From Lyngbya aestuarii BL J (GTDB lineage Bacteria > Cyanobacteriota > Cyanobacteriia > Cyanobacteriales > Microcoleaceae), in the NCBI RefSeq assembly GCF_000478195.2, contig NZ_AUZM01000023.1:1-64000 (forward strand): a stretch of DNA of 64,000 nt, given 5' to 3'. A program made the translations under genes and the position numbers. Shown here piece by piece: positions 37,175-50,156 of this stretch; position 1 is the stretch's first letter, and the number at the start of each line of letters is the position of its first letter. A model generated the notes under the pieces. That model was given only the letters and a program-made list of their open reading frames with translations, was not told the origin of the DNA and made no database searches.

Positions 37175-37453
37175 TTAGTTGGCAGCAATTTGAACATCTA
37201 CGGTTTGTTTACCGGGATTTTCTGCGGCTAATTCGGCTTCGGCTTCGGCGATGGTATCTTCCCAAAGTTCTCCCACTTCGGCGAGCGCTTTTTGTCCGTT
37301 ATGATAAAGTTTAACGCCGCTTTTTATACTGGCTTTGGCGACAGTTTTGGCAACGGGAACGAGTAGGGGAACTAAGACTAATGCACCGACTCCGACCGCT
37401 GCGGTTGTCACTGATGTTTGTTTGAAGGTTCTCAATAGATGAAGGTGTGCCAT
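37175..37453 (-). CDS. DUF5132-like small membrane protein (copy 1)
   Basis: 92 aa from the ATG at 37453, preceded by GAGGA; an upstream start at 37477 is less likely. One Gly/Val-rich hydrophobic helix (AAVGVGALVLVPLLVPVAK), then an amphipathic AKTVAKASIKSGVKLY and a Glu/Ala-rich helix (EVGELWEDTIAEAEAELAAE). This matches the cyanobacterial DUF5132 pattern. It follows the two-HMA2 gene by 48 nt in the same operon. Two relatives lie at 40853 and 41173. I infer a partner role for the nearby P-type ATPase. Confidence 0.75.
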   Translation of the reverse strand: MAHLHLLRTFKQTSVTTAAVGVGALVLVPLLVPVAKTVAKASIKSGVKLYHNGQKALAEVGELWEDTIAEAEAELAAENPGKQTVDVQIAAN

Positions 37454-37501
37454 GATAAATTTCCTCGCTTTATTCAAAGGGTGAAAAGGTTTTGCGTTGA
37501 A

Positions 37502-38548
37502 CTAGCCGACCGTCTGAGGTGCGGGACGACCTGCCATAAAGTTTAAAAACATTGACAGCATGGAAGACTTAAATTCTGAAAATTTTCCTTTTTTCTCCGG
37601 AATGTTTGGGGTTGAATTGACGGCGGTTTCTGAAACGGTTTCTACTTTTGGTTTAACCGAATTTTCAACAATATTTTCGACTATTGTTTCGGGTTTTGCT
37701 TCTTCAATGGATGGGGCGACTTGTATTTCGGAAGTTGTTACCGGAGTGGTTAATATTTCAGAAAGATTGGGTTGGCTTTCTGCAACTTTCTCAAACAAAC
37801 GGTTTAACTCACTCTCCAGTTTGACAACACTATTAAATTGATGAATGATTGTCACCGAAGCGGTTGTGGGATTAATATTAATGGTTTTAATCCCAGAAAT
37901 TTGTTCGGCGAATCTTTCTAGGCGTTTGGCGTAACGGGAATCTTCTCTGACTTGCGGAACTCTCAGCCGAATTCGTCCGGGTGTTGAATGAATGACGCTG
38001 ATTTCTAAGTTTTTGTCTTGAAGATTGCTAGAATTTTTGGGATTCAAATTGGCGGTTAATAATGCAGCGTTCTTCAGTTGGGGTTTGACGCCGTTGATGA
38101 CTTTTGCTGTGGCTTGACTGGTTGCGTAGGAAACCGGAAGCGATACCCAACCGCTAAGTCCTAAATGTCGGTTTAATAGCATCGCTGCAATCATCCGAAT
38201 TAAGGTTTCAATCACTTCTGTTGAGGGTTCGGATGTTGAGGTCAATTTAACCGCTTCATCGGGAGAAAGGTGCTGACTTTCTGATTGATTTTTGAATTGA
38301 TTTTCTAATGCACAGTGAGAAACGGTTAACTGTGCTAAAAGTTGAGATAGCGAGAGTTTTCGCGTGTCAAATTTTAACACCAAACTCTCGGTGTTGGGAT
38401 GTAAAATAACGCTGTAGACTCCTTCTATTTGTCGCAGGTTTTGGGCGACTGTTTCTTTGTGACTCCTGACTTTTATTCGCACACGTCCCGGCGTTGCATG
38501 AACCACTTCAATTGCTGTATTAATCGGTTGCGGGGTCGTGTTGGTCAT
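37502..38548 (-). CDS. Protein with two cysteine-free HMA2-type domains
   Basis: 348 aa. Two ferredoxin-like HMA2 domains: about 14-80 (HATPGRVRIKV) and about 185-260 (HSTPGRIRLRV). The CxxC metal motif of classical HMA domains is absent; its place is taken by the H-x-x-PGR-x-R pattern. Between them is a moderately hydrophobic segment (about 118-145). The C-terminus is a low-complexity Val/Glu/Pro linker ending in a hydrophobic GKFSEFKSSMLSMFLNFMAG. A near-perfect AAAGGAGGTG lies before the ATG. It forms an operon with the DUF5132 gene downstream. The same HMA2 type is found at 43745 and in the ATPase at 41509. Confidence 0.8.
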   Translation of the reverse strand: MTNTTPQPINTAIEVVHATPGRVRIKVRSHKETVAQNLRQIEGVYSVILHPNTESLVLKFDTRKLSLSQLLAQLTVSHCALENQFKNQSESQHLSPDEAVKLTSTSEPSTEVIETLIRMIAAMLLNRHLGLSGWVSLPVSYATSQATAKVINGVKPQLKNAALLTANLNPKNSSNLQDKNLEISVIHSTPGRIRLRVPQVREDSRYAKRLERFAEQISGIKTININPTTASVTIIHQFNSVVKLESELNRLFEKVAESQPNLSEILTTPVTTSEIQVAPSIEEAKPETIVENIVENSVKPKVETVSETAVNSTPNIPEKKGKFSEFKSSMLSMFLNFMAGRPAPQTVG

Positions 38549-39094
38549 ATTCCACCTCCTTTGGGGGAATCTAGAGTAGATGCTGAACTTAATCCCTTGG
38601 TGCCAGAGTCGGTTAAACGAAGGTTAAGTTACTTTCTAATTCTAGATTAATCCTTTTTGCTTCTAATGACAAGTAGAACTCTTTTTTTTTTACAAATTTT
38701 ATTGTTCAAAAGTTCGTATAAAACTTGCGCTGAGTCGATTTCAGGTCTTTTGTCTCGGTTCATTTGGGAAATTTTTAAATGATTCTAAAAAGTTAATTGA
38801 CAACAATATTCAATTGTTTAAATCCCGCTTTTTTTACTAAGATTTAGGCAATAATTTGGTTACGGCTTAAGGATAATTTTGTTAGGGTTTCCAGACAATC
38901 AAAATTTATTGACAATAACCTTCAACTGTTGTCGGGGTTGTTGGGATGCACGCCCCCTCTCCGCGCAACATAACCCAAAGTCTATATTTCCGTCACAAAA
39001 TCTATACCTTCTTCTATAAAAGTGTTTTAGATATTGTCACAAAATTAAAACCGGTCTAAGATAGAGACATCGCAACGCAAGGAGTTGAACGAAT
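38549..39094. promoter_or_regulatory. Divergent control region with repeated dyads
   Basis: It lies between the HMA2 operon (minus) and the RHH-like gene (plus). Two related 26-bp words start at 38796 (ATTGACAACAATATTCAATT) and 38908 (ATTGACAATAACCTTCAACT), 112 bp apart, 19 of 26 positions equal, each with an internal dyad (AACAAT/ATTGTT and GACAA/TTGTC). GTCACAAAAT occurs twice (38992-39001, 39036-39045), 44 bp apart. The second copy overlaps the -35 box of the plus-strand promoter. These are candidate operators for a metal-dependent regulator; the regulator is not known. Confidence 0.45.
39034..39062 (+). promoter_or_regulatory. Candidate promoter of the His-rich RHH-like gene
   Basis: TTGTCA (39034-39039), a 17-nt spacer and TAAGAT (39057-39062). 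It lies 33 nt before the ATG. The GTCACAAAAT repeat overlaps the -35 box. Confidence 0.5.
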
Positions 39095-39469
39095 ATGCAC
39101 AGAAGAGGAGGATGTCGTCACGGTGCCGGACGTCCGGGGGCTTGGAGACACGGGCAAACCCAAACCATTCGCGTACCGATGGCGCTGAAAGAACAGTTGC
39201 TCGAAATTACCCGACAGTTGGATAATGGGGAGACGGTGGGCTTCGCAGAGAACGACCTACAAGCGTTGATGAATCGTTGGCAACAAGAATGTAATGCAGC
39301 TTCGCCCGATGCGGTAGAATGGCAAAAAGTCCGTCAACTTTTGGCCGAACTTCAGCAGGTTTTATTGACATCAAGCCTTGAGTCGGGATGCGGAAACCGC
39401 AAGGGTCACAGAGGTCAAGGTCACTGTGGCGGACACCATCACGAAGTCGTTGAAACGCCGATTATTTAG
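39095..39469 (+). CDS. Small ribbon-helix-helix-like protein with His/Cys-rich termini
   Basis: 124 aa, with AAGGAG 9 nt before the ATG. The N-terminus MHRRGGCRHGAGRPGAWRHG leads into TIRVPMALKEQLLEITRQLD. This is the AGRP...IRVP...LD arrangement seen in cyanobacterial CopG/ribbon-helix-helix-type proteins. A helical middle follows. The C-terminus CGNRKGHRGQGHCGGHHHEV is rich in Cys and His and could bind a metal ion. A metal-sensing regulator of the flanking HMA2/ATPase genes is inferred from position and composition. No biochemical family is certain. Confidence 0.6.
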   Translation: MHRRGGCRHGAGRPGAWRHGQTQTIRVPMALKEQLLEITRQLDNGETVGFAENDLQALMNRWQQECNAASPDAVEWQKVRQLLAELQQVLLTSSLESGCGNRKGHRGQGHCGGHHHEVVETPII

Positions 39470-39595
39470 TCGCAATTTGTTGATCCCCCCTGCTGTTTTG
39501 AAAGGGGGGTTGGGAGAGGGAAGGGGTTAGTTTTTAGTTGCTCTTAAAATTAAAATTCTGTTTGCCGTCCTCATTTTTGGAGTTGCTATCCGATT

Positions 39596-40321
39596 ATGAA
39601 TGAATCCGAAAACGAATATCAATTAAAGATACTGGATATGGCGACTCATCTTTGTCTGGATAAAATCGCCACTCCCACGGATGAAAATCTAATATTTATG
39701 GAATCTAATGTTGATAAAATTATTTGGGATGTAGCGACCGAAATCTATCAACAGAGTGGTTTTAAAGCTGATTTGGCTAGGGTCAGAAATATCGTTATTT
39801 CTCGTATTGAAAATATCAGGTATCAAGTTCAGCTTAAAGCCGAACCAAAAGCCGCAGAACAGGCTAAATGTGAAGCCGAGTTACGAGAACAAGCCGAACC
39901 AAAAGCGGCAGAAGAAGCCCAACGTTTAGACGAGTTGCAAGAACAAGCCGAACAAAAAGCAGCAGAAGAAGCCAAACGTGAACCCGAGTTGCAGAAACAA
40001 GCTGAACAAAAAGCGGCAGAAGAAGCTAAACGTGAAGCCGAGTTGAAAGCCGAAATTTTTCTCCAACTACGAAGGGTATTGGCCGAAGAATTAAGAGTCG
40101 ATGAAGAAAAGGTAAATTTTGACAGCAATATTACAGACTATTTGCGTGTACATTGGGCGGATAGGCTACTCATTTCTGTGGCTATAGAGCAGGAATTTGA
40201 AATTGAGATACCAGACGATGAAGCAAAAAAAATTGGTCTTTATGGCTTCAATTCTTGCACAGTTAGAGAATTATTCGATTATATTTATCAGAAGATTAAC
40301 AACACTACAAAAACAAAATAG
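39596..40321 (+). CDS. Coiled-coil protein with C-terminal acyl-carrier-like domain lacking the attachment serine
   Basis: 241 aa, function unknown. Residues 1-78 are helical. Residues 80-155 contain about three tandem 18-residue units (EAELQEQAEQKAAEEAKR type), a long charged helix or coiled coil. The last ~80 residues have the ACP layout: LRRVLAEELRVDEEKVNFDSNI, LISVAIEQEFEIEIPDDEA, TVRELFDYI. Where a carrier has D-S-L, this has A-D-R-L-L, so there is no serine for phosphopantetheine. It may be a structural ACP-like module. A similar type accompanies some cyanobacterial signalling genes. No Shine-Dalgarno sequence is obvious. Confidence 0.55.
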   Translation: MNESENEYQLKILDMATHLCLDKIATPTDENLIFMESNVDKIIWDVATEIYQQSGFKADLARVRNIVISRIENIRYQVQLKAEPKAAEQAKCEAELREQAEPKAAEEAQRLDELQEQAEQKAAEEAKREPELQKQAEQKAAEEAKREAELKAEIFLQLRRVLAEELRVDEEKVNFDSNITDYLRVHWADRLLISVAIEQEFEIEIPDDEAKKIGLYGFNSCTVRELFDYIYQKINNTTKTK

Positions 40322-40852
40322 AATCTGTTCTGCGTTCTGGTCATCCTCCAACTACAGCAATGGTGTCCCACAAACGAGCAACTTGTCAACCCGTGCGATG
40401 GCTAGTTCGCAGTGGGTGGGCGTCGAGAGGGGTTGGGGGAGAGGTCATACCCCCCTTTTTAAGGCAGGGCTGTTTCATTTTCTGTCAGAAATTGTAGAAC
40501 CTAACCCCCCAACCCCCTTCCCTACGAGGGAATGGGGAGTTATTAAGAGTTGTAGATACTTAATAATCTTAAAAATCCTCCCCTCGCAATTTATCAACAT
40601 TCCCGAATGGGACACCTTTTCCCTCTCCTCGTAGGAGAGGGTTAGGGAGAGGTCGAGACGGAATGGGGGGAAGGGGGGATAAAATCTTAAGAGAATGCTG
40701 AGATTTGCAACACCCTTGAGTTTTGCTCGCCGCTTGTGCTTAAATGAGAATCTGGGGAACATCTGATCTGGCGATCGCAATTCGGTAAAAATAAAATTGT
40801 ACAAGCGAGAAGTTCTCCAGATTTGACGCAGGTACTTGGCGGAGGATAATAA
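40322..40852. other. Repeat-rich intergenic region with worn element copy C
   Basis: 531 nt without a convincing gene. At 40464-40480 lies AGGGCTGTTTCATTTTCTG, the end of the MITE family in inverted orientation. It is followed near 40560-40580 by TTAATAATCTTAAAAATCC and CTCCC, echoing the conserved tail, so this is a degenerate copy without a minisatellite. Palindromic repeats of the CCTACGAGG type are at 40503-40535 and 40612-40657. The right end should hold the promoter of the next gene. Confidence 0.5.
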
Positions 40853-41176
40853 ATGTTAACTCAAAATCAGGCTAGATTGGCAATTGTTGAGCGCATCAGA
40901 ACCGCTTACCAAAATAATCCCACCCGAACAATTGCGATAGGAGTCGGAGTTGTGGTCTTAACTCCTGCGGTAATTCCGTTACTCAAACCCGTTGCGAAAG
41001 CAGCGATAAAAGGCGGGGTTTCGATGTACGAAAAAACCAAGGCGGCGATGGCAGAAACGGGCGAAGTGTTCGGAGATATCGTTGCCGAAGCCCAAGCAGA
41101 AGTCGCCGCAGAAGCCCAACAAAAAGCTGAACAAACAGCGGCTTTATTATCCAACCACAGCAACCCGAAGAACTAA
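40853..41176 (+). CDS. DUF5132-like small membrane protein (copy 2)
   Basis: 107 aa with GGAGG 8 nt before the ATG. The pattern is as in copy 1: a hydrophobic helix (IAIGVGVVVLTPAVIPLLK), KPVAKAAIKGGVSMYEKTK, and a Glu/Ala-rich tail (AEAQAEVAAEAQQKAEQ). It stands alone on the plus strand. Its stop overlaps the stop of the convergent copy 3 by 4 nt, so the two transcripts can form antisense overlaps. Probably a membrane partner of the ATPase system (inferred). Confidence 0.75.
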   Translation: MLTQNQARLAIVERIRTAYQNNPTRTIAIGVGVVVLTPAVIPLLKPVAKAAIKGGVSMYEKTKAAMAETGEVFGDIVAEAQAEVAAEAQQKAEQTAALLSNHSNPKN

Positions 41177-41457
41177 ATAATTTTCTCGGCAGATGTCGTC
41201 GAATTGTTGTTAGGATTAAACCCATTTTGTTCGATGTCTATTCGGGTTTGTTTGGTTTCGTGATAAACGGATAACCCTTGTTTAATGGCAGCTTTTAGCA
41301 AGGGTCGTCCCAATTTCGTTGCCGCCGGAACCACAATGGTTCCCAAAACAATCACCCCAATTCCGGCTAAGGCGAGTTGATGGTTGGGGTTTTCGTCTTC
41401 GAGAATTTCTCGCAAATGAAGTGACAAAACAGACCGATCCCAATGAATTAGAGACAT
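41173..41457 (-). CDS. DUF5132-like small membrane protein (copy 3)
   Basis: 94 aa with AGGAGA before the ATG. A hydrophobic helix (LALAGIGVIVLGTIVVPAAT) and RPLLKAAIKQGLSVYHETK give the same core as the other two copies, but the acidic Glu/Ala tail is replaced by an Asn/Ser-rich end. It is the last gene of the operon after the P-type ATPase, 51 nt downstream. Confidence 0.7.
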   Translation of the reverse strand: MSLIHWDRSVLSLHLREILEDENPNHQLALAGIGVIVLGTIVVPAATKLGRPLLKAAIKQGLSVYHETKQTRIDIEQNGFNPNNNSTTSAEKII

Positions 41458-41508
41458 AATTGCTCTCCTAATATTTTATCAACAATTCAACCCAAAAATT
41501 TGATGATT

Positions 41509-43764
41509 TTAACGAGAAGTTGAACCTCCACCTTCAAACTGATGTTGAACTAACGGACGCAAACTATTTAAACCCGCAGCAATTGCCGAACCGTTGTGAA
41601 TAACTGTCGCAATTAATGGGTTTAAACCGATAGCCGAAGCCAACCCCAAAGCAATTAAATTCGGGGCGACAACAAGCAGGGTATTTTGGTCGATTAAATT
41701 GCGAGTTTCCTTGGAAATAGCGATCGCCTGTAGTAAACTACTAATATCATTATTCATCAACACAATATCGGCCGTTTCCCTTGCCACATCGGAACCATCT
41801 TCAAAAGATACCGAAACATCCGCATAAGCCAACGCTACCGAATCGTTTAACCCATCACCAACAAACGCCACAGTTCGCCCGGAACGGTGCAAATCTCGAA
41901 CAATTTTCGCCTTTTGTTCGGGGAAAGCTTCCGCGTGAACTCGCTTGGGTGGAATGTTCAATTCTTCTGCAACTAAATCCGCCCGTTGACGGCTATCTCC
42001 GGTTAACAAATGAATCTCCATTCCGTAGCGGTTTTGTAATTCTTCAATTAACTCTAAACTTTCAGGACGCAAGGGGTCAGCATATTGTATCGCCCCCTGC
42101 AATTGACCGTTACAGGCGACATATATTAACGACATCCAAGCGGAATTTTCGGGCGAATTTTCGGTATCAGGTTGATCTAATCCTTCCAAACTAATCCCCT
42201 CTTGGGTGATAAATCTCCCGCTTCCCACCAAGACTTTTTGACCTTCGATTTCCGCCCGAATTCCCAAACCAACTTCATAATTCCAATCCACCCGGGGCGG
42301 TATTTCTATGTTTTGTTCTTGAGCGTAACGTACAATTGATTCTGCAACCGGATGAGTAATTCTTTGTTCGCTTGCTGCCGCATATTTGATCACGTCTTTG
42401 GCTGACATTCGCCCGGAAATTGTTTTCACCCCAACGACGGAAATATTACCTTGAGTTAGGGTTCCGGTTTTATCAAAAACAATGGTATCGAGTTCGGCTA
42501 ATTGTTCTAAGGTGCGTCCGCTTCTAACTAAAATACCGTGTCGGGTGGTGTGGTTTAAAGCGCCTAAAAAAGCGGTGGGAATAGACACTCGAATTCCGGT
42601 GACAAAATCGAGAGTTAATATTGATGCGGCTCGGGCGGGGTCGCGGGTGGCGGCGAAGACAATTCCTGCTAAAATAAGCGAAGGTACGATCAGGCGATCG
42701 GCAAGTTGAGCGGCATAGTTTGCCATGCGGGTATCGTGAACGGGCGCTTTTTCCAACAGTTCTAAACTCGCCGCAGCCCGGGTTTTTTGACCGATGCGTT
42801 CGGCTTTGATGTGCAGGCTTCCCGAACGAAGCAGGGTAGAGGCGTAGACAAAGGTGCCGTTTTCTGCAACAATGGGCATGGATTCGCCTGTGAGTTGCTG
42901 CTGATCGACGACGGCTTTTCCTTCTATAACAACCCCATCAACGGGTATTTGTTCGCCGGGATAGACGAAAACGATTTCTCCGGGTTCTACTTGGTCGCTC
43001 GGAATTGATTGTTTTTCGTCGTTGCGTTCGACCCAAGCGAAGCGTCCAATCGTATCAAGTAGGTCTGCGGTTTGGTGTTCGGTGGAACGGGCGGTTTGTT
43101 CGCGGATGACGTCTCCGAGTTCGTGCAGGGTGAGGACGAGGGCGGGTGTAACGAGTTTTCCTTGCGCTCCTCCCAAGCTTAGGGCGAGTAAGTCTAAGCA
43201 GTCAATGTTGAGTTTTTGCTTGACAAATAGGCTGTAAAATGCACGTTGGGCGACGGGAAAGGTAACGAGCGCCAGAGAACCCCAGGCAAAAGGACGCAAC
43301 CACGCCAAGCGAGTTGAACTACTCAGTAAGGCGAGAAGGGTGGCGCCGGTTGGGGCGATGAGGCTTGACCATTCTCCCTCGTCGTCGGCCTCGTTGGGTT
43401 CGGAAGGTTTCGCTAAAGAAGAATCGGAAATATCTTCGACGGTAATTGTGGTTCCGGCTTGTTGGATGAGGTTTGATAATCGAGAATAAATCTCAATATC
43501 GGTTGAGATGTGAGGTTGATAATGAATCGCAACAGAAGCGGCTGCACGGTTAATTCTAACTTGAATAACGTCCGGTTCCGACTGCAATACTTTCTCTAAT
43601 ATTTCTGCATAATAGTTATCGGAATTGAGCCGATAAACCCGAAATCTCACCCGTCCCGGCACCGCATGAACCAAATAGGGCGCTGATTCTACGATGCGTT
43701 CCGATTTGATGATCGCGCCGTTGGTGTCAGAAAGGGAAATTAATTTATGATTCGTTGCTGTCAT
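41509..43764 (-). CDS. P1B-like P-type ATPase with HMA2 domain and replaced CPx motif
   Basis: 751 aa. An N-terminal HMA2 domain (about 31-100, HAVPGRVRFRV, no CxxC) precedes the ATPase core. TGES is at 292-295, the phosphorylated Asp431 in DKTGTLT, the P1B hallmark HP in RITHPVAES, LTGDS and GDGLNDS. The membrane motif that is CPC, SPC or similar in metal pumps reads FVTG here (387-390, within LDFVTGIRVSIPTA), so the transported substrate cannot be predicted from known classes. The start overlaps the upstream HMA2 gene by 20 nt. Operon: HMA2-TM protein, ATPase, DUF5132. Confidence 0.9.
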   Translation of the reverse strand: MTATNHKLISLSDTNGAIIKSERIVESAPYLVHAVPGRVRFRVYRLNSDNYYAEILEKVLQSEPDVIQVRINRAAASVAIHYQPHISTDIEIYSRLSNLIQQAGTTITVEDISDSSLAKPSEPNEADDEGEWSSLIAPTGATLLALLSSSTRLAWLRPFAWGSLALVTFPVAQRAFYSLFVKQKLNIDCLDLLALSLGGAQGKLVTPALVLTLHELGDVIREQTARSTEHQTADLLDTIGRFAWVERNDEKQSIPSDQVEPGEIVFVYPGEQIPVDGVVIEGKAVVDQQQLTGESMPIVAENGTFVYASTLLRSGSLHIKAERIGQKTRAAASLELLEKAPVHDTRMANYAAQLADRLIVPSLILAGIVFAATRDPARAASILTLDFVTGIRVSIPTAFLGALNHTTRHGILVRSGRTLEQLAELDTIVFDKTGTLTQGNISVVGVKTISGRMSAKDVIKYAAASEQRITHPVAESIVRYAQEQNIEIPPRVDWNYEVGLGIRAEIEGQKVLVGSGRFITQEGISLEGLDQPDTENSPENSAWMSLIYVACNGQLQGAIQYADPLRPESLELIEELQNRYGMEIHLLTGDSRQRADLVAEELNIPPKRVHAEAFPEQKAKIVRDLHRSGRTVAFVGDGLNDSVALAYADVSVSFEDGSDVARETADIVLMNNDISSLLQAIAISKETRNLIDQNTLLVVAPNLIALGLASAIGLNPLIATVIHNGSAIAAGLNSLRPLVQHQFEGGGSTSR

Positions 43765-44350
43765 CGCTAGTTACCCCTGATGGTGTAGTAAGGTGCGAGT
43801 TGGCGGGTGTTTCTAGGGAGAGAGCGCTGTCGATAAAGTTCATTAACCGCATTCCCAGTTCCCAATCACTCATGCCTTGAGTCGTATAATTAATTGTAAT
43901 TGAAGCCGCCGCCCGATTAATCCGAATATTGGTAATTTGTTCTTCTTCAGAGAGGATTTGTTCGAGGCGTTGGCTAAAATCTGCATCGGTGGCTAAACGA
44001 GAAATTCTGAGGCGAATTCTTCCGGGGATTGAGTGAACAATGGTATACTCTGAATCGGAATTATTTTCTGTATAATTTGCTGCTGAATGGGTTGTATTTT
44101 CCGCTTCAGGTGTTACCAAATGAGACTGTTTTTTCAGGTGCGTCAGAATTTGACGAAACACACTGGCAATGATTAAATTGGCTAACAGGGCTTGGGAGCC
44201 TCGCAGTTGAAAGCGGGAAGTGACAACTATCCCGACAACAACAGGTAAAATCGCCTCAATTTCCCCGTGTTCAAGTAGAAAATCTGCGATGCGAGTTTCT
44301 GTATTTTGAATGGGAATGGAACTGACTGAATTTGAGGATGTTGTGGTCAT
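43745..44350 (-). CDS. Membrane protein with HMA2-type domain
   Basis: 201 aa. A hydrophobic stretch (about 33-50, EAILPVVVGIVVTSRF, and a second around 57-70) is followed by a linker and one HMA2 domain (about 101-170, HSIPGRIRLRI then NIRINRAAASITINY). There is no CxxC. The RINRAAASV/I core is nearly identical to that of the ATPase HMA2 domain downstream. The gene starts the operon and overlaps the ATPase start by 20 nt. Confidence 0.75.
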   Translation of the reverse strand: MTTTSSNSVSSIPIQNTETRIADFLLEHGEIEAILPVVVGIVVTSRFQLRGSQALLANLIIASVFRQILTHLKKQSHLVTPEAENTTHSAANYTENNSDSEYTIVHSIPGRIRLRISRLATDADFSQRLEQILSEEEQITNIRINRAAASITINYTTQGMSDWELGMRLMNFIDSALSLETPANSHLTTPSGVTSDDSNES

Positions 44351-45118: not shown

Positions 45119-47833
45119 ATGAAAAAACAAGTTGTTATCAGAATATCAGGGGGCGATTTTGATACAGGTTTTCCTGTTGTTCTAGAGTTTTGGGAAGACG
45201 GTACAATCATTGCCATAGATCGCGATTGTCCTAAACTTCCCGCCCAACCAGAAATTGAAGAAAATTATAAAGAATGGCAAGAAAATTATAGGGTTTTGGG
45301 AGATAGAACGATTCAATTTCCAGACGCACAAATTACCAACCAATCGACTTGTCAAGATTGTTTTAATGTAACTAAAAAGCTTGAAAAGACTCTAGAAAGT
45401 TGGTTTAAAAATCCTATTTTTGGGGATATTCGAGGGCGAATTGTGGGACGTTTAAGGGATGTAACGCCCAACGAATCTGTAAGAGTTGTTTTGGATACGC
45501 CTAATCATTATCTACGGAGATTATCTTGGGATAGCTGGGATTTATTTGAAAGAGATTATTTTTTACCCAATGCGGAGTTAGTCCTTTTATCTCGATACAA
45601 TCGACCTCCAGAAATGCTCAGAATACCCGTTAAAATTCTGGCTATTTTTGGCAGCGATGAAGGAGGTCTGGAACTGACGCAGGATAAAGAACTAATTAAA
45701 AAATTAGCCGAACATGGAGGAGAAATTACCTGCATTCCCAAAGAAGGAAATTCTCTCACTCTCCCAGAACTATTTAAGACCCTTTCTCGGGGAAATTGGG
45801 ATATAATTTTCTATGCCGGACACAGTTCAGGTCAAACCCTTCAAGTTACTAATACTGTAGATTTCAACGTCTCGCTATTAAAAGAAGCCCTGAGAATAGC
45901 GGCTCCCCATATTAAGCTTGCGATCTTTAATTCTTGTGATGGATTAGATATTGCGGACTATTTAGCAGAGTTTAATATTCCCCATTTAATCGTCATGCGA
46001 GAACCGGTTCCCGATGAAGTAGCCCGAATTTTTTTGAAGTATTTTTTAGCAGAATTTATTCAAGGAAAACCCCTTCATGTTGCGGTTCATCAAGCCAGAC
46101 AACAATTACATCAATTAGAAGTTCCAACCGCAGACAATGAACCTTATTATCCGGGAGCATCCTGGCTACCGATACTCTTACAAAATCCGACGGCTCCCCA
46201 ACTGTATTGGCCTCAACCAGAACCAGAACCCTTACCCGAAAAACCCTTAATCCAACCCAAAGTAACGATGATATTTGGGTTAGTATTAATGGGTATTTTT
46301 ATAGGTGTTTTCTGGGGAAATTCAAGCCGCTTTTTTAAGAAACCTAATGTGTTCGGAGATGCTATCAGTGGGGGCGAGGAAATTGTCATAAAAATGTTTC
46401 AGCAACGGCGTAAACAAAGGGGTGTAGAACCTGTTGCCGATTGCCAAAAACCCTTGAAGTATTTTCTACCGATTTGGAAGGGTTATATTAAACAACAGTG
46501 GAATGATTGTTTTGTCAGCAAAAAAAGTTATCACGAAGCCATTCAACACCTTCAAAAAAGCTGGGAAGAAGAAAAACACGATCCCGAAACTTTAATCTAT
46601 CTCAATAACGCCACGTTGGAAGCGACAGGAGCCGATTACTATACCATTGCTATTGTTGTTCCGACGATAAAAAATCAAGCCGGAGAAGTCATTGATGTTG
46701 AACTTGCAGAAGACATTCTGCGGGGAATTGCTCAAGCCCAAACTGAAGTTAACTTGAGTTTATTCAACGGGGATGAATCTGCTGAGTATACCTTACCGGG
46801 TTCAGATTTTCTTCAGCGTATAGACTTAAATGGAAAAGGTTTAAAAGTGATTATTGCTGATGATTTTAACTTCAAACCTCAAGCCATCAAAAATGCACAG
46901 ATCCTCGTTAACAACTCAGAATTTTTAGGCGTAATTGGTCATTATTCCAGTGAGATGACCCTCGCTACTTTAGATATTTACAACAAAAACAAAGTAGTTT
47001 TAGTGACTCCCGGAACAAGCACCTCTGAACTCAGTGAAAACCCCGAACAGTTTTTCTTCCGAATTCCCGCAGTGAATTATTTGCAGGCTTATGAAATGGT
47101 TGACATCTTGACCGAGGAAATCAAGCAAAAAAAAGTCACGATTTTTTATAATCCTGCCAGTCCCTTTTCCAGCGATTACAAACAACACTTTGAAGAAAAA
47201 TTGTTAGAAAAAGGAGGAGAAGTTATTGCCTCTTTTAACCTTTCTAGCCCTAACTTTAATGCTAAAGAGGCGATGGAAAGAATTAGAAACTTTGAAGAAG
47301 AATCCGCGATTATTTTAATACCCGACGGTCAGGTGACAAATTCTGTTAATCAAGCCCTAGAAGTGATTAAAGAAAATCAAGGTGAATATTTGATGTTCGG
47401 TAACTCCTCGGTTGACACGCCCAGAACTTTGGCGCTCGGTCAAGAATATCTAGAAAAATTACATTTAGTCATTTACTGGCACCATTTAAACAGTTCTCAG
47501 CCCGATTTTTCGCAAATAACTTCGCAGCTTTGGGGTGAATTCGTCAGTCTTCGTACCGCTTTAGCCTACGATGCGGCTCATGTTTTGATTGAAGGAATGA
47601 GACAAAATCCCACCCGCAAAGGAATTCAAAAAATACTTTCTAGTGAAAGCTTCAGGGTTGACGGCGTGACGGGGAAAATTGAGTTTAAACCGGGAACAGG
47701 CGATCGCAAAGAGCAACCCATTGATATTGTTAAAGTTGCTGCTTGTGCGAATCAAGAGTATGGGGTTATTTTTCTCCCGAAAAACTTTTCAAGACCGGAA
47801 GAAGCGGGCTTAAATTGTTCAAATCGTGAATGA
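45119..47833 (+). CDS. One-chain receptor protease: CHAT (caspase-like) - membrane helix - periplasmic binding domain
   Basis: 904 aa. Residues ~165-370 form a CHAT domain with the catalytic pair His235 (FYAGHSSG) and Cys273 (NSCDG). Before it is a domain of about 150 residues with no assignment. A single hydrophobic helix lies at about 382-400, flanked by a Pro/Glu linker and by RFFKK. From about 505 to 890 comes a type I periplasmic binding domain of the branched-chain amino acid receptor kind (VIGHYSSEMTLATLDIYNKNKVVLVTPGTSTSEL, KVTIFYNPASPFS, ALAYDAAHVLIEG). The protease half should be cytosolic and the ligand-binding half extracytoplasmic. A ligand-triggered protease is inferred. No ribosome site is obvious. 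Confidence 0.85.
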   Translation: MKKQVVIRISGGDFDTGFPVVLEFWEDGTIIAIDRDCPKLPAQPEIEENYKEWQENYRVLGDRTIQFPDAQITNQSTCQDCFNVTKKLEKTLESWFKNPIFGDIRGRIVGRLRDVTPNESVRVVLDTPNHYLRRLSWDSWDLFERDYFLPNAELVLLSRYNRPPEMLRIPVKILAIFGSDEGGLELTQDKELIKKLAEHGGEITCIPKEGNSLTLPELFKTLSRGNWDIIFYAGHSSGQTLQVTNTVDFNVSLLKEALRIAAPHIKLAIFNSCDGLDIADYLAEFNIPHLIVMREPVPDEVARIFLKYFLAEFIQGKPLHVAVHQARQQLHQLEVPTADNEPYYPGASWLPILLQNPTAPQLYWPQPEPEPLPEKPLIQPKVTMIFGLVLMGIFIGVFWGNSSRFFKKPNVFGDAISGGEEIVIKMFQQRRKQRGVEPVADCQKPLKYFLPIWKGYIKQQWNDCFVSKKSYHEAIQHLQKSWEEEKHDPETLIYLNNATLEATGADYYTIAIVVPTIKNQAGEVIDVELAEDILRGIAQAQTEVNLSLFNGDESAEYTLPGSDFLQRIDLNGKGLKVIIADDFNFKPQAIKNAQILVNNSEFLGVIGHYSSEMTLATLDIYNKNKVVLVTPGTSTSELSENPEQFFFRIPAVNYLQAYEMVDILTEEIKQKKVTIFYNPASPFSSDYKQHFEEKLLEKGGEVIASFNLSSPNFNAKEAMERIRNFEEESAIILIPDGQVTNSVNQALEVIKENQGEYLMFGNSSVDTPRTLALGQEYLEKLHLVIYWHHLNSSQPDFSQITSQLWGEFVSLRTALAYDAAHVLIEGMRQNPTRKGIQKILSSESFRVDGVTGKIEFKPGTGDRKEQPIDIVKVAACANQEYGVIFLPKNFSRPEEAGLNCSNRE

Positions 47834-47993: not shown

Positions 47994-49832
47994 TTATTGA
48001 AAGCCCAAAAGCAACGCGCTTTGATAGAAAATAAAGCTACAAACCCAAGCCAAAACCAAAGAAAATACCAGTGAAAACGCCGTAAATTTCCAAGATTTGG
48101 CTTCGTTGAGAATGGTCGCAATTGTTGTCAGACAGGGCGTGTACAGCAAACAGAAAATACAAAAACTGTAGCCCTGTGCAAAGGTAATCGTTTCGGCAAT
48201 ATGGGCGCCAACGCTGGCTGATTGTAAGCCGTAAATCACCGCCAACGAACCCAAAACCACCTCTTTAGCAATGAAACCAAAAATTAACGCCAAAGTCAAA
48301 TAAGGATCAATTCCAATCGGTCGCATAACTGGACTGAGAAACTGACCAATTTGACCGCCAATGGTATCTAAACCCGTAGCGCCGGGAGGTAAACTGGTAA
48401 TTACCCAAACCGCAATACAACCCACAGTAATAAAGCCGGAAGCGCGAACTAAAAATTCTCGAACTTCTCCCCAACCTCTGAGGGCAACCTGTTTCAATGT
48501 CGGCAAACGATAGGGGGGTAATTCTAATACAAACGGGTCTTCATTTTTAAAGGCACCTTGAAACAGAAAGGCGGTTAAAAAGGCAGCTAAGAAGCTAAGA
48601 AGGTACAAAGAAAATAGAACAAGCGCCCCGTTTCCGTTCGGAAAAACTGCCGCAATAATAAAGACAAAAACCTGCAATCTTGCCGAACACAACCCAAAGG
48701 GAATAATCAACATCGTTAACAGTCGCAACGCCCGGGAACGCATCACCCGGGTTCCCATCAACGCCGGAACATTGCAACCAAATCCCATCATGTGTAAAAC
48801 AAAACTGCGTCCGTCCAAACCCAGACGCGCCATCAGTGCATCCATCAAATAAGCCGCCCGAGACAGGTAGCCGCTATCTTCTAAAATTGCCATCACGATA
48901 AAGAAGATAACAATTAACGGTACAAAGGAAGCAACCGTTGCGACACCCGCCCAAATGCCATTAATAAAAAAGTCTTGAACGACTCCCGGAAACACGCTTA
49001 AAACTGGAGAAATTACCGTTTCTTCTAACCATCCGGTGAGGCTATCCATGATGTCTTGAGACGGCAACCCCACATTCCAAACAATCCAAAAAACGGCAAA
49101 CATCCCCAGGAAAAATAGGGGTAAACCGAAGACGGGATGGAGTAAAACGCTATCGAGTTTTGCGGTTAAGGTTTGTGCCAACTGCGAGGGCATTTCTACC
49201 GCATCTTTGAGGATAATTTCGATTTCATCAACCGAGATTTTTCCCCGTTGGGCTAAGACTTGACGAATATCATTAACGATAACTGGAAGTTCGGTTTTTT
49301 CTAACTGATGGCAAATGGTTTCGTAGGCTTTCATGTAGCCTTTACCGTATTTTGCACTGATTAGAAAAACGGGCATTTCTAAATGTCGGGATAATTCTTT
49401 TGAGTTAATTTCAACGCCATAATGTTTGGCTTCGTCCGACATATTTAACATCACCACCGCAGGCAAACCCAAGGCTTTCACCTGCAACGCCAAGCGAATT
49501 TGGCGGTCAATTTGCGCGGCATTTAAAACAACAATCACCAAATCAATGGCATATTTTTCTAAGAAAGTTCGCACCACTTTCTCATCTTCTGAATAACCGT
49601 TGAGGTCGTAAATTCCCGGCAAATCTACAAATTCAACGGTTTCGCCATTTATTTTAACGTTCGCTTGCAGCAAATCAACCGTTACACCCGGCCAATTTCC
49701 CACGTAAGCAGCAACCCCGGTAATCCGGCTAAAAAAGGTGGATTTTCCCGTGTTGGGCATTCCAATTAATGCCACCCGTTTAACGGCTTTTTCGTCTCTC
49801 GGTTGAGTGACGGTTGGAGAATGACAAGTCAT
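47994..49832 (-). CDS. feoB: Ferrous iron transporter B
   Basis: 612 aa from the ATG at 49832 with AGGGG about 9 nt upstream; a GTG at 49862 would add ten residues. FeoB imports Fe2+ through the inner membrane. The G domain shows GMPNTGKST (G1), DLPGIYDL (G3) and LNMSDE (G4, variant of NKxD). It is followed by the GDI-like helical region and the membrane core with the two Gate segments, including HMMGFGCNVPA and PFGLCSARL. Shorter than the ~770-residue enterobacterial protein, normal for cyanobacteria. It lies 87 nt downstream of feoA in the same operon. Confidence 0.96.
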   Translation of the reverse strand: MTCHSPTVTQPRDEKAVKRVALIGMPNTGKSTFFSRITGVAAYVGNWPGVTVDLLQANVKINGETVEFVDLPGIYDLNGYSEDEKVVRTFLEKYAIDLVIVVLNAAQIDRQIRLALQVKALGLPAVVMLNMSDEAKHYGVEINSKELSRHLEMPVFLISAKYGKGYMKAYETICHQLEKTELPVIVNDIRQVLAQRGKISVDEIEIILKDAVEMPSQLAQTLTAKLDSVLLHPVFGLPLFFLGMFAVFWIVWNVGLPSQDIMDSLTGWLEETVISPVLSVFPGVVQDFFINGIWAGVATVASFVPLIVIFFIVMAILEDSGYLSRAAYLMDALMARLGLDGRSFVLHMMGFGCNVPALMGTRVMRSRALRLLTMLIIPFGLCSARLQVFVFIIAAVFPNGNGALVLFSLYLLSFLAAFLTAFLFQGAFKNEDPFVLELPPYRLPTLKQVALRGWGEVREFLVRASGFITVGCIAVWVITSLPPGATGLDTIGGQIGQFLSPVMRPIGIDPYLTLALIFGFIAKEVVLGSLAVIYGLQSASVGAHIAETITFAQGYSFCIFCLLYTPCLTTIATILNEAKSWKFTAFSLVFSLVLAWVCSFIFYQSALLLGFQ

Positions 49833-49919
49833 CGTATTTTCCCCTAAAATATGGTCAATCACAAAGCTTCAGACTCGCCGAAGACTTTATGAACTTTTAA
49901 TTAATACTGTAACGAAGTT

Positions 49920-50156
49920 TTAACAGACTTTCACGCGAATCTGTTGGGCTTCGTGTCGGCGAATGGCGACTTCTGTTGTTGTACCGATGCGGACGTGTAA
50001 GGGTCCCCCAAACCACGCGACTCTTAACACTTGTATCGCTCTATCGGGAAGAATTCCCATTGCTTCTAATCTATGTACCAAACCGTCGTTAGAATGATGG
50101 GGTTGAATACTCTCGACAAACCCAACCTGTCCGGCTTTCAGTTCGGATAAACCCAT
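49920..50156 (-). CDS. feoA: FeoA, SH3-like partner of FeoB
   Basis: 78 aa with AGAGGAGA before the ATG. The core of FeoA is clear: LKAGQVGFVESI, HRLEAMGILPDRAIQVL, GGPLHVRIGTTTEVAIRRHEAQQI. It is a small cytosolic protein needed for FeoB function. First gene of the feoA-feoB operon. Fur control is expected for such operons; I found only a weak match to a Fur box. Confidence 0.95.
   Translation of the reverse strand: MGLSELKAGQVGFVESIQPHHSNDGLVHRLEAMGILPDRAIQVLRVAWFGGPLHVRIGTTTEVAIRRHEAQQIRVKVC

Follow-up and report, generated by a model that had tools for sequence, protein, structure and literature searches.

Organization of the Locus

The window analyzed here is the whole stretch of 64,000 nucleotides at positions 1 to 64,000 of contig NZ_AUZM01000023.1 of the cyanobacterium Lyngbya aestuarii BL J. 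Positions 37,175–44,350 contain genes for a P-type ATPase, for HMA_2 proteins and for proteins with a single membrane helix, which belong to DUF5132 or to a sister family. The open reading frames of the window place these genes exactly where an initial annotation, made from the sequence alone, had put them. Its observation as a whole is confirmed with the corrections given below, and its interpretation is partly supported.

The central gene (41509..43764, minus strand) encodes a P1B6-like ATPase of 751 residues. The protein has an HMA_2 domain at about residues 30–103, LDFVTGIRVS in transmembrane helix 4 (TM4; D386 and T389), HN in TM6 (H723 and N724) and the motif DKTGT. An HMA_2 protein of 201 residues (43745..44350, minus strand), in which hydrophobic N-terminal helices are followed by an HMA-like fold, overlaps the start of the ATPase by 20 bases. 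A one-helix protein of the sister family, with the N-terminal motif SLIHWD-x-S-V-L, is encoded 52 bases downstream of the ATPase (41173..41457, minus strand). These three genes look like one tight operon. On the plus strand, a DUF5132 one-helix protein with the Glu/Ala tail GDIVAEAQAEVAAE (40853..41176) converges on this operon and overlaps 41173 by 4 bases.

The second minus-strand pair consists of a tandem HMA_2 protein of 348 residues with two HMA_2 domains (37502..38548) and, downstream of it, another DUF5132 one-helix protein (37175..37477). The gene set was initially described as recurring within 7 kb. The recurrence is incomplete: this pair lacks an ATPase, and the closest matches of 37502 (27–30%) are tandem HMA_2 proteins of a second ATPase group. 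These facts rule out the local duplication of one complete set.

HMA_2 Domains

With Pfam cut-offs of 30 bits for HMA_2 and 25 bits for DUF5132, the tandem protein 37502 scores 70.6 bits to HMA_2 over its two domains, and 43745 scores 40.6 bits. The N-terminus of the ATPase scores 26.5 bits, under the cut-off. Its assignment is backed by the AlphaFold2 model, which has the same order of strands and helices as HMA_2 of 43745, and by the residues H33, R38 and R40, which are kept in 24/24 aligned cyanobacterial ATPases. The sequence H-x-x-PGR-x-R is seen in all four HMA_2 domains of the window, as first described. The RINRAAAS core, thought to be common to them as well, is seen only in 43745 and the ATPase; the corresponding sequences in the two domains of 37502 are LHPNTESL and INPTTASV.

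None of the four domains contains CxxC, the metal site of HMA metallochaperones (PF00403), in agreement with the initial annotation. In the AlphaFold2 model of 43745, most of the HMA_2 part has a predicted local distance difference test score above 90, and HxxPGRxR lies in a beta hairpin that has no pair of Cys residues. The structural matches of 43745 include the HMA domains of MerP, Atx1 and CopA, all of which are weak (best E value 4e-3; template modeling score of 0.71 by target length for MerP). A thiol metal relay of the HMA/CopZ kind is ruled out by the lack of both CxxC and CPC. It had been proposed that the HMA_2 proteins exchange something other than a thiol-bound metal. The second half of this proposal fits the Cys-free ion site of the ATPase. 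Nothing shows an exchange of ligands, and docking to the tails of the one-helix proteins would be at least as good an explanation. A literature search for "HMA2 domain" returned only papers on plant nucleotide-binding leucine-rich repeat proteins, and HMA_2 was not found in the six genomes of distant CPC-type matches that were tried.

One-Helix Proteins

Two of the three proteins first described as DUF5132-like belong to this family: 37175 scores 48.6 bits and 40853 scores 56.6 bits. The third, 41173, scores 14.2 bits, below the cut-off. By alignment it represents a distinct family ("MSLIHWD..."), which is homologous to DUF5132 by profile comparison (97% probability). The DUF5132 proteins are composed of a glycine-containing helix and a Glu/Ala tail. 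Inspection of sequences and gene order indicates the features of PacL: one membrane helix, a Glu/Ala-rich cytoplasmic tail and a gene beside a P1B6-like ATPase. The C-terminal Asp/His metal-binding motif of PacL is absent by inspection from all three one-helix proteins of the window.

The tail sequence GD[IV]VAEA is common to DUF5132 and a Rhodococcus DUF1490 (PacL) protein. To the eye, the Rhodococcus tail GDVVAEARGRIGEE is similar to GDIVAEAQAEVAAE of DUF5132; the profile comparison made from the single Rhodococcus sequence is weak (12% probability). The partner ATPase of this DUF1490 protein has an N-terminal HMA_2 match of 25 bits, below the cut-off. One Bacillota one-helix protein has weak matches to two families, DUF5132 at 21 bits and DUF6110 at 17 bits, each below the cut-off. 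DUF6110 has been reported beside P1B6 ATPases and as a relative of DUF1490, and PacL1 binds the N-terminus of CtpC through its Glu/Ala repeats (PMC9374683). Based on the PacL1–CtpC binding, the Rhodococcus DUF1490–ATPase pair and the ties among DUF5132, DUF6110 and DUF1490, we infer that the one-helix proteins act as scaffolds and that their tails bind to HMA_2 domains. The analogy with PacL, already drawn in the initial annotation, is thus stronger than it was stated there. No paper on DUF5132 was found in the literature searched.

Co-Occurrence and Conserved Gene Order

DUF5132 and HMA_2 are present in exactly the same 25 of 146 sampled cyanobacterial genomes (hypergeometric p about 1e-28, shared ancestry ignored), and the ATPase is found at E ≤ 1e-150 in 20 of the 25. 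The co-occurrence proposed earlier as a check is therefore seen. Three genomes of the window's own family contain no component of the system. According to the locus maps, the usual order is HMA_2 protein, ATPase and one-helix gene within about 1 kb, often with gaps of fewer than 100 bases. For 42 loci, at least 5 kb is available on both sides of the ATPase. An HMA_2 protein is encoded within 1 kb in 34 of these, and a one-helix gene is located within 2.5 kb in 37. The DUF5132 profile drifted during iteration into HMA_2-bearing proteins of about 190 residues, which are excluded from these counts. Loci of close relatives are not independent, and the gene calls of relatives are mechanical open reading frames.

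A chance gene cluster is ruled out by the 25/25 overlap and the conserved order. The genes form one conserved cyanobacterial system, and the earlier idea of a single multi-component membrane transporter is supported by co-occurrence and linkage in relatives.

Class and Predicted Ion Site of the ATPase

The ATPase has a P1B layout. Eight helices of its AlphaFold2 model are read as membrane helices, and in structural comparison it matches CopA and ZntA best. LDFVTGIRVS of TM4 stands where CPC would be. Nearly all relatives have ILTLDFVTGIRVS-PTAF in TM4, and TM6 reads [IV]HNG[ST]A. All 24 aligned cyanobacterial ATPases have Asp386, Thr389, Gly390, Arg392, Ser394, Asn702 and Asn724, and His723 is kept in 21/24. 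Only two Cys residues are seen among the 751 (C189 and C551), neither in TM4 to TM6. The predicted ion site is without Cys.

HN in TM6 is a mark of P1B6 ATPases, and CtpC, which has HN plus CPC, is P1B6-like (PMC9374683). The window ATPase has HN at H723–N724. The TM4 sequence of the Bacillota P1B6-type loci, D-[FY]-[SA]-C-[GA], is retained in part: the Asp, the Gly, the basic residue and the Ser are kept, and the Cys is replaced by Thr389 in 24/24. On its motifs, the ATPase is classified as P1B6-like by HN, but it lacks the TM4 Cys. Bacillota ATPases with D[FY][SA]CGLKLS in TM4 and HN in TM6 are accompanied by small HMA_2 proteins and mostly also by a short one-helix protein. Proteobacterial relatives, on a Vibrio plasmid (L203) and in an alphaproteobacterium (L194), contain DYSCALK and an N-terminal HMA_2 domain, and a one-helix gene lies just upstream.

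HMA_2 is also found with other P-type ATPases. The second cyanobacterial group (L056–L059 and L050) has NN instead of HN in TM6, and most of its members are near a DnaA-like gene. In Bacillota, giant P-type ATPases of about 1530–1570 residues (L168, L176 and L178) have an N-terminal HMA_2 domain or an adjoining HMA_2 gene. P2A-like ATPases of about 1000 residues with an N-terminal HMA_2 domain have an S-adenosylmethionine (SAM) synthetase gene directly downstream in every case, often with DUF5132 beside them. They are seen in cyanobacteria (L056, L062, L064, L066, L068, L070, L078 and L079) and Alphaproteobacteria (L193 and L195), with gaps of −3 to 195 bases; the frame is ambiguous at L193. 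In the six genomes checked, this SAM synthetase is an additional MetK that shares about 50% identity or less with the other copy. The genome of the window has one MetK only, of the type not associated with P2A-like ATPases.

Iron Genes around the System

In the window, FeoA and FeoB genes are located upstream of the ATPase operon on the same strand. The ferrous-iron transporter FeoB is encoded at 47994..49862 (minus strand), and upstream of it a FeoA-like protein of 78 residues, found by profile match, at 49920..50156 (minus strand). One plus-strand gene (45119–47833) intervenes between feoAB and the ATPase operon. It encodes a protein of 904 residues, in which a CHAT domain is joined to a periplasmic-binding (receptor ligand-binding) domain.

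FeoB is 1–7 kb from the ATPase in 12/20 genomes (binomial p about 2e-21 if the per-genome chance is taken as 0.7%, shared ancestry ignored). Feo genes are seen within 8 kb in 22 of the 42 loci with full flanks, across lineages with differing gene order. Several contigs are short, so the Feo counts are lower bounds. At one locus (L042), genes for FeoA, FeoB, FeoC (PF09012), ferritin (PF00210, 6.5e-38), DUF2202, HMA_2, the ATPase and a one-helix protein follow one another on one strand. FeoC is a neighbor at ten loci, the ferritin-like DUF2202 at five and flavodoxin at three. A FecE-like ATP-binding cassette (ABC) ATPase also recurs among the neighbors. In Bacillota, FeoA-FeoB is seen in 3/9 loci with D[FY][SA]CGLK in TM4. 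Control loci contain no Feo gene: 0/5 for CPC-type HMA_2 ATPases, 0/8 for P2A-type HMA_2 ATPases and 0/4 for the second cyanobacterial group. Because Feo and ferritin neighbors recur, while the other HMA_2 ATPase classes are without Feo, neighborhood and motifs suggest Fe(II) as the most likely substrate. The substrate had been left unassigned in the initial annotation; FeoA, FeoB, FeoC and ferritin-like genes beside the locus provide a clue.

A site of Asp, Thr, His and Asn without Cys would also suit harder ions, and in a Deinococcus relative the nearby genes include a metal ABC importer and a metal-dependent regulator. It can be speculated that the pump acts on Mn(II), Co(II) or another hard divalent ion and that the local FeoB serves that ion. 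However, the FeoC, ferritin and flavodoxin neighbors indicate iron, and no Mn-specific transporter recurs among the neighbors. We regard a pump for such an ion as unlikely.

Another possibility is an efflux platform like PacL/CtpC for excess zinc or another metal, the Feo neighborhood being incidental. The architecture is that of DUF1490–ATPase pairs, whose ATPase has a weak N-terminal HMA_2 match and HN in TM6, and CtpC exports zinc (PMC9374683). CtpC-type ATPases retain CPC in TM4, whereas the site of the window ATPase has no Cys, and the Bacillota CPC-type loci are without Feo linkage. Such efflux is quite unlikely here.

As the same pair of HMA_2 and DUF5132 goes with the P2A-like ATPases beside the second SAM synthetase, it might instead be a general scaffold of P-type ATPases without a fixed substrate, forming a regulatory membrane patch and not an iron system. 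Against this, Feo genes are linked only where the ATPase combines the Asp-type TM4 with HN. This idea appears improbable in itself, and it is partly compatible with the reading of the locus as an iron pump.

Several facts weigh against an iron pump of the P1B6/PacL type. The proteins 40853 and 37175 match only DUF5132 and not the DUF1490 model, even at E values up to 10. Thr stands in place of the TM4 Cys of the Bacillota P1B6 type, which leaves room for another substrate. The maximum-likelihood tree separates the cyanobacterial ATPases, as a clade of their own, from Bacillota P1B6; its deep branches are weakly supported. The approximately unbiased test does not reject a clade with Asp-type P1B6 alone (p = 0.17), and grouping with both P1B6 and the CPC/HN types gives the same unrooted tree as the best one. 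The second cyanobacterial group, which has NN in TM6, is without Feo genes at its four loci L056–L059, and about ten of the 26 cyanobacterial groups contain no Feo gene in the available flank, some contigs being short. Upstream of its HMA_2 genes, the window has no clear Fur-like box (p about 0.6); boxes are present in some relatives.

Two further plus-strand genes lie between the HMA_2 pair and the ATPase operon. The product of 39095..39469 has a basic N-terminus (QTIRVP) and a Cys/His-rich tail. Its homologues adjoin the same ATPase system in Picosynechococcus and Microcystis, and its membership in the system is uncertain. The product of 39596–40321 has an acyl-carrier-protein-like domain behind Glu/Ala/Lys-rich repeats, with no homologue in the other loci.

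Proposed Mechanism

The domains, conserved linkage, motifs and Feo neighborhood, all directly seen, suggest a model for the substrate, the direction and purpose of transport, the ion-site ligands, the scaffold role and the HMA_2 face that binds the tails. We consider it reasonably probable that the system is a cyanobacterial variant of the P1B6/PacL metal-pump module, with Fe(II) as the most likely ion, one-helix scaffolds and HMA_2 domains for docking or regulation. The ATPase would remove a divalent metal from the cytoplasm, and this metal would most likely be Fe(II) taken up through the adjacent FeoAB. It may be moved over the cytoplasmic membrane or, alternatively, into a compartment for storage. 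D386 and T389 (TM4), N702 (TM5) and H723 and N724 (TM6) may make up the ion site, with no Cys. The DUF5132 proteins and the 41173 protein could oligomerize via their glycine-rich helices. Their tails, which are Glu/Ala-rich in DUF5132, would dock on HMA_2 domains and in this way hold and stabilize the ATPase. Extra docking or regulatory sites in the same membrane patch would come from the separate HMA_2 proteins. HMA_2 domains would then act in docking or regulation and not as thiol metal carriers.

A more specific version is a ferrosome-like system, in which the Cys-free P1B6-like ATPase together with HMA_2 and DUF5132 would fill a membrane-bound iron store fed by FeoAB. This version is rather unlikely. 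No paper on ferrosomes made by cyanobacteria was found in the literature searched, as far as the titles and abstracts of the candidate papers tell.

The variant of the P1B6/PacL module would tie DUF5132 and HMA_2, two families without an assigned role, to one P-type ATPase module across phyla. It would give both families a testable job, with a likely substrate, Fe(II), and a candidate ion site. It also suggests that cyanobacteria, among them the culturable Picosynechococcus and the bloom-forming Microcystis, have a previously undescribed pump for handling iron. Iron widely limits the growth of cyanobacteria. If the reading is true, such a pump, by storing or expelling Fe(II) that has entered through Feo, would matter where iron is limiting. 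The reading also predicts that PacL-type scaffolds use the so far unexplained HMA_2 domain for docking.

Comparison with Known Systems

As proposed, the window system would act in the manner of PacL–CtpC and of the P1B6 part of the ferrosome system. CopA and ZntA, which have HMA (PF00403) domains, share with the window system the overall ATPase fold and, through weak matches, the HMA-like fold of HMA_2. The window system differs in having neither CxxC nor CPC and in its partners.

The ferrosome system (fez) of Desulfovibrio, Rhodopseudomonas and C. difficile includes FezB, which is reportedly a P1B6 ATPase. It shares with the window system the P1B6 class, by HN and the Asp-containing TM4, and the iron context. 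The Bacillota and proteobacterial loci with D[FY]SC[GA], taken as the P1B6/Fez type, also have HMA_2 proteins and mostly one-helix proteins. In C. difficile, FezA and the transporter FezB are needed for ferrosomes, and the genes are repressed by Fur (PMC12574912). The fez set of R. palustris is composed of six genes (PMC12016538). In the window system, by contrast, the TM4 Cys is replaced by Thr, the ATPase falls in a separate deep clade and the hosts are oxygenic phototrophs. The likeness to Fez is one of motifs, gene content and iron context, and the name Fez is not applied to the window system.

The zinc efflux platform PacL1–CtpC of Mycobacterium, composed of DUF1490 and a P1B6-like ATPase (PMC9374683, PMC13043812), shares with the window system a one-helix protein with a Glu/Ala tail beside an HN-bearing P1B6-like ATPase. 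The window system differs in lacking CPC, the C-terminal metal-binding motif of the one-helix proteins and a match to the DUF1490 model. Its own additions are the extra free HMA_2 proteins and the Feo neighbors.

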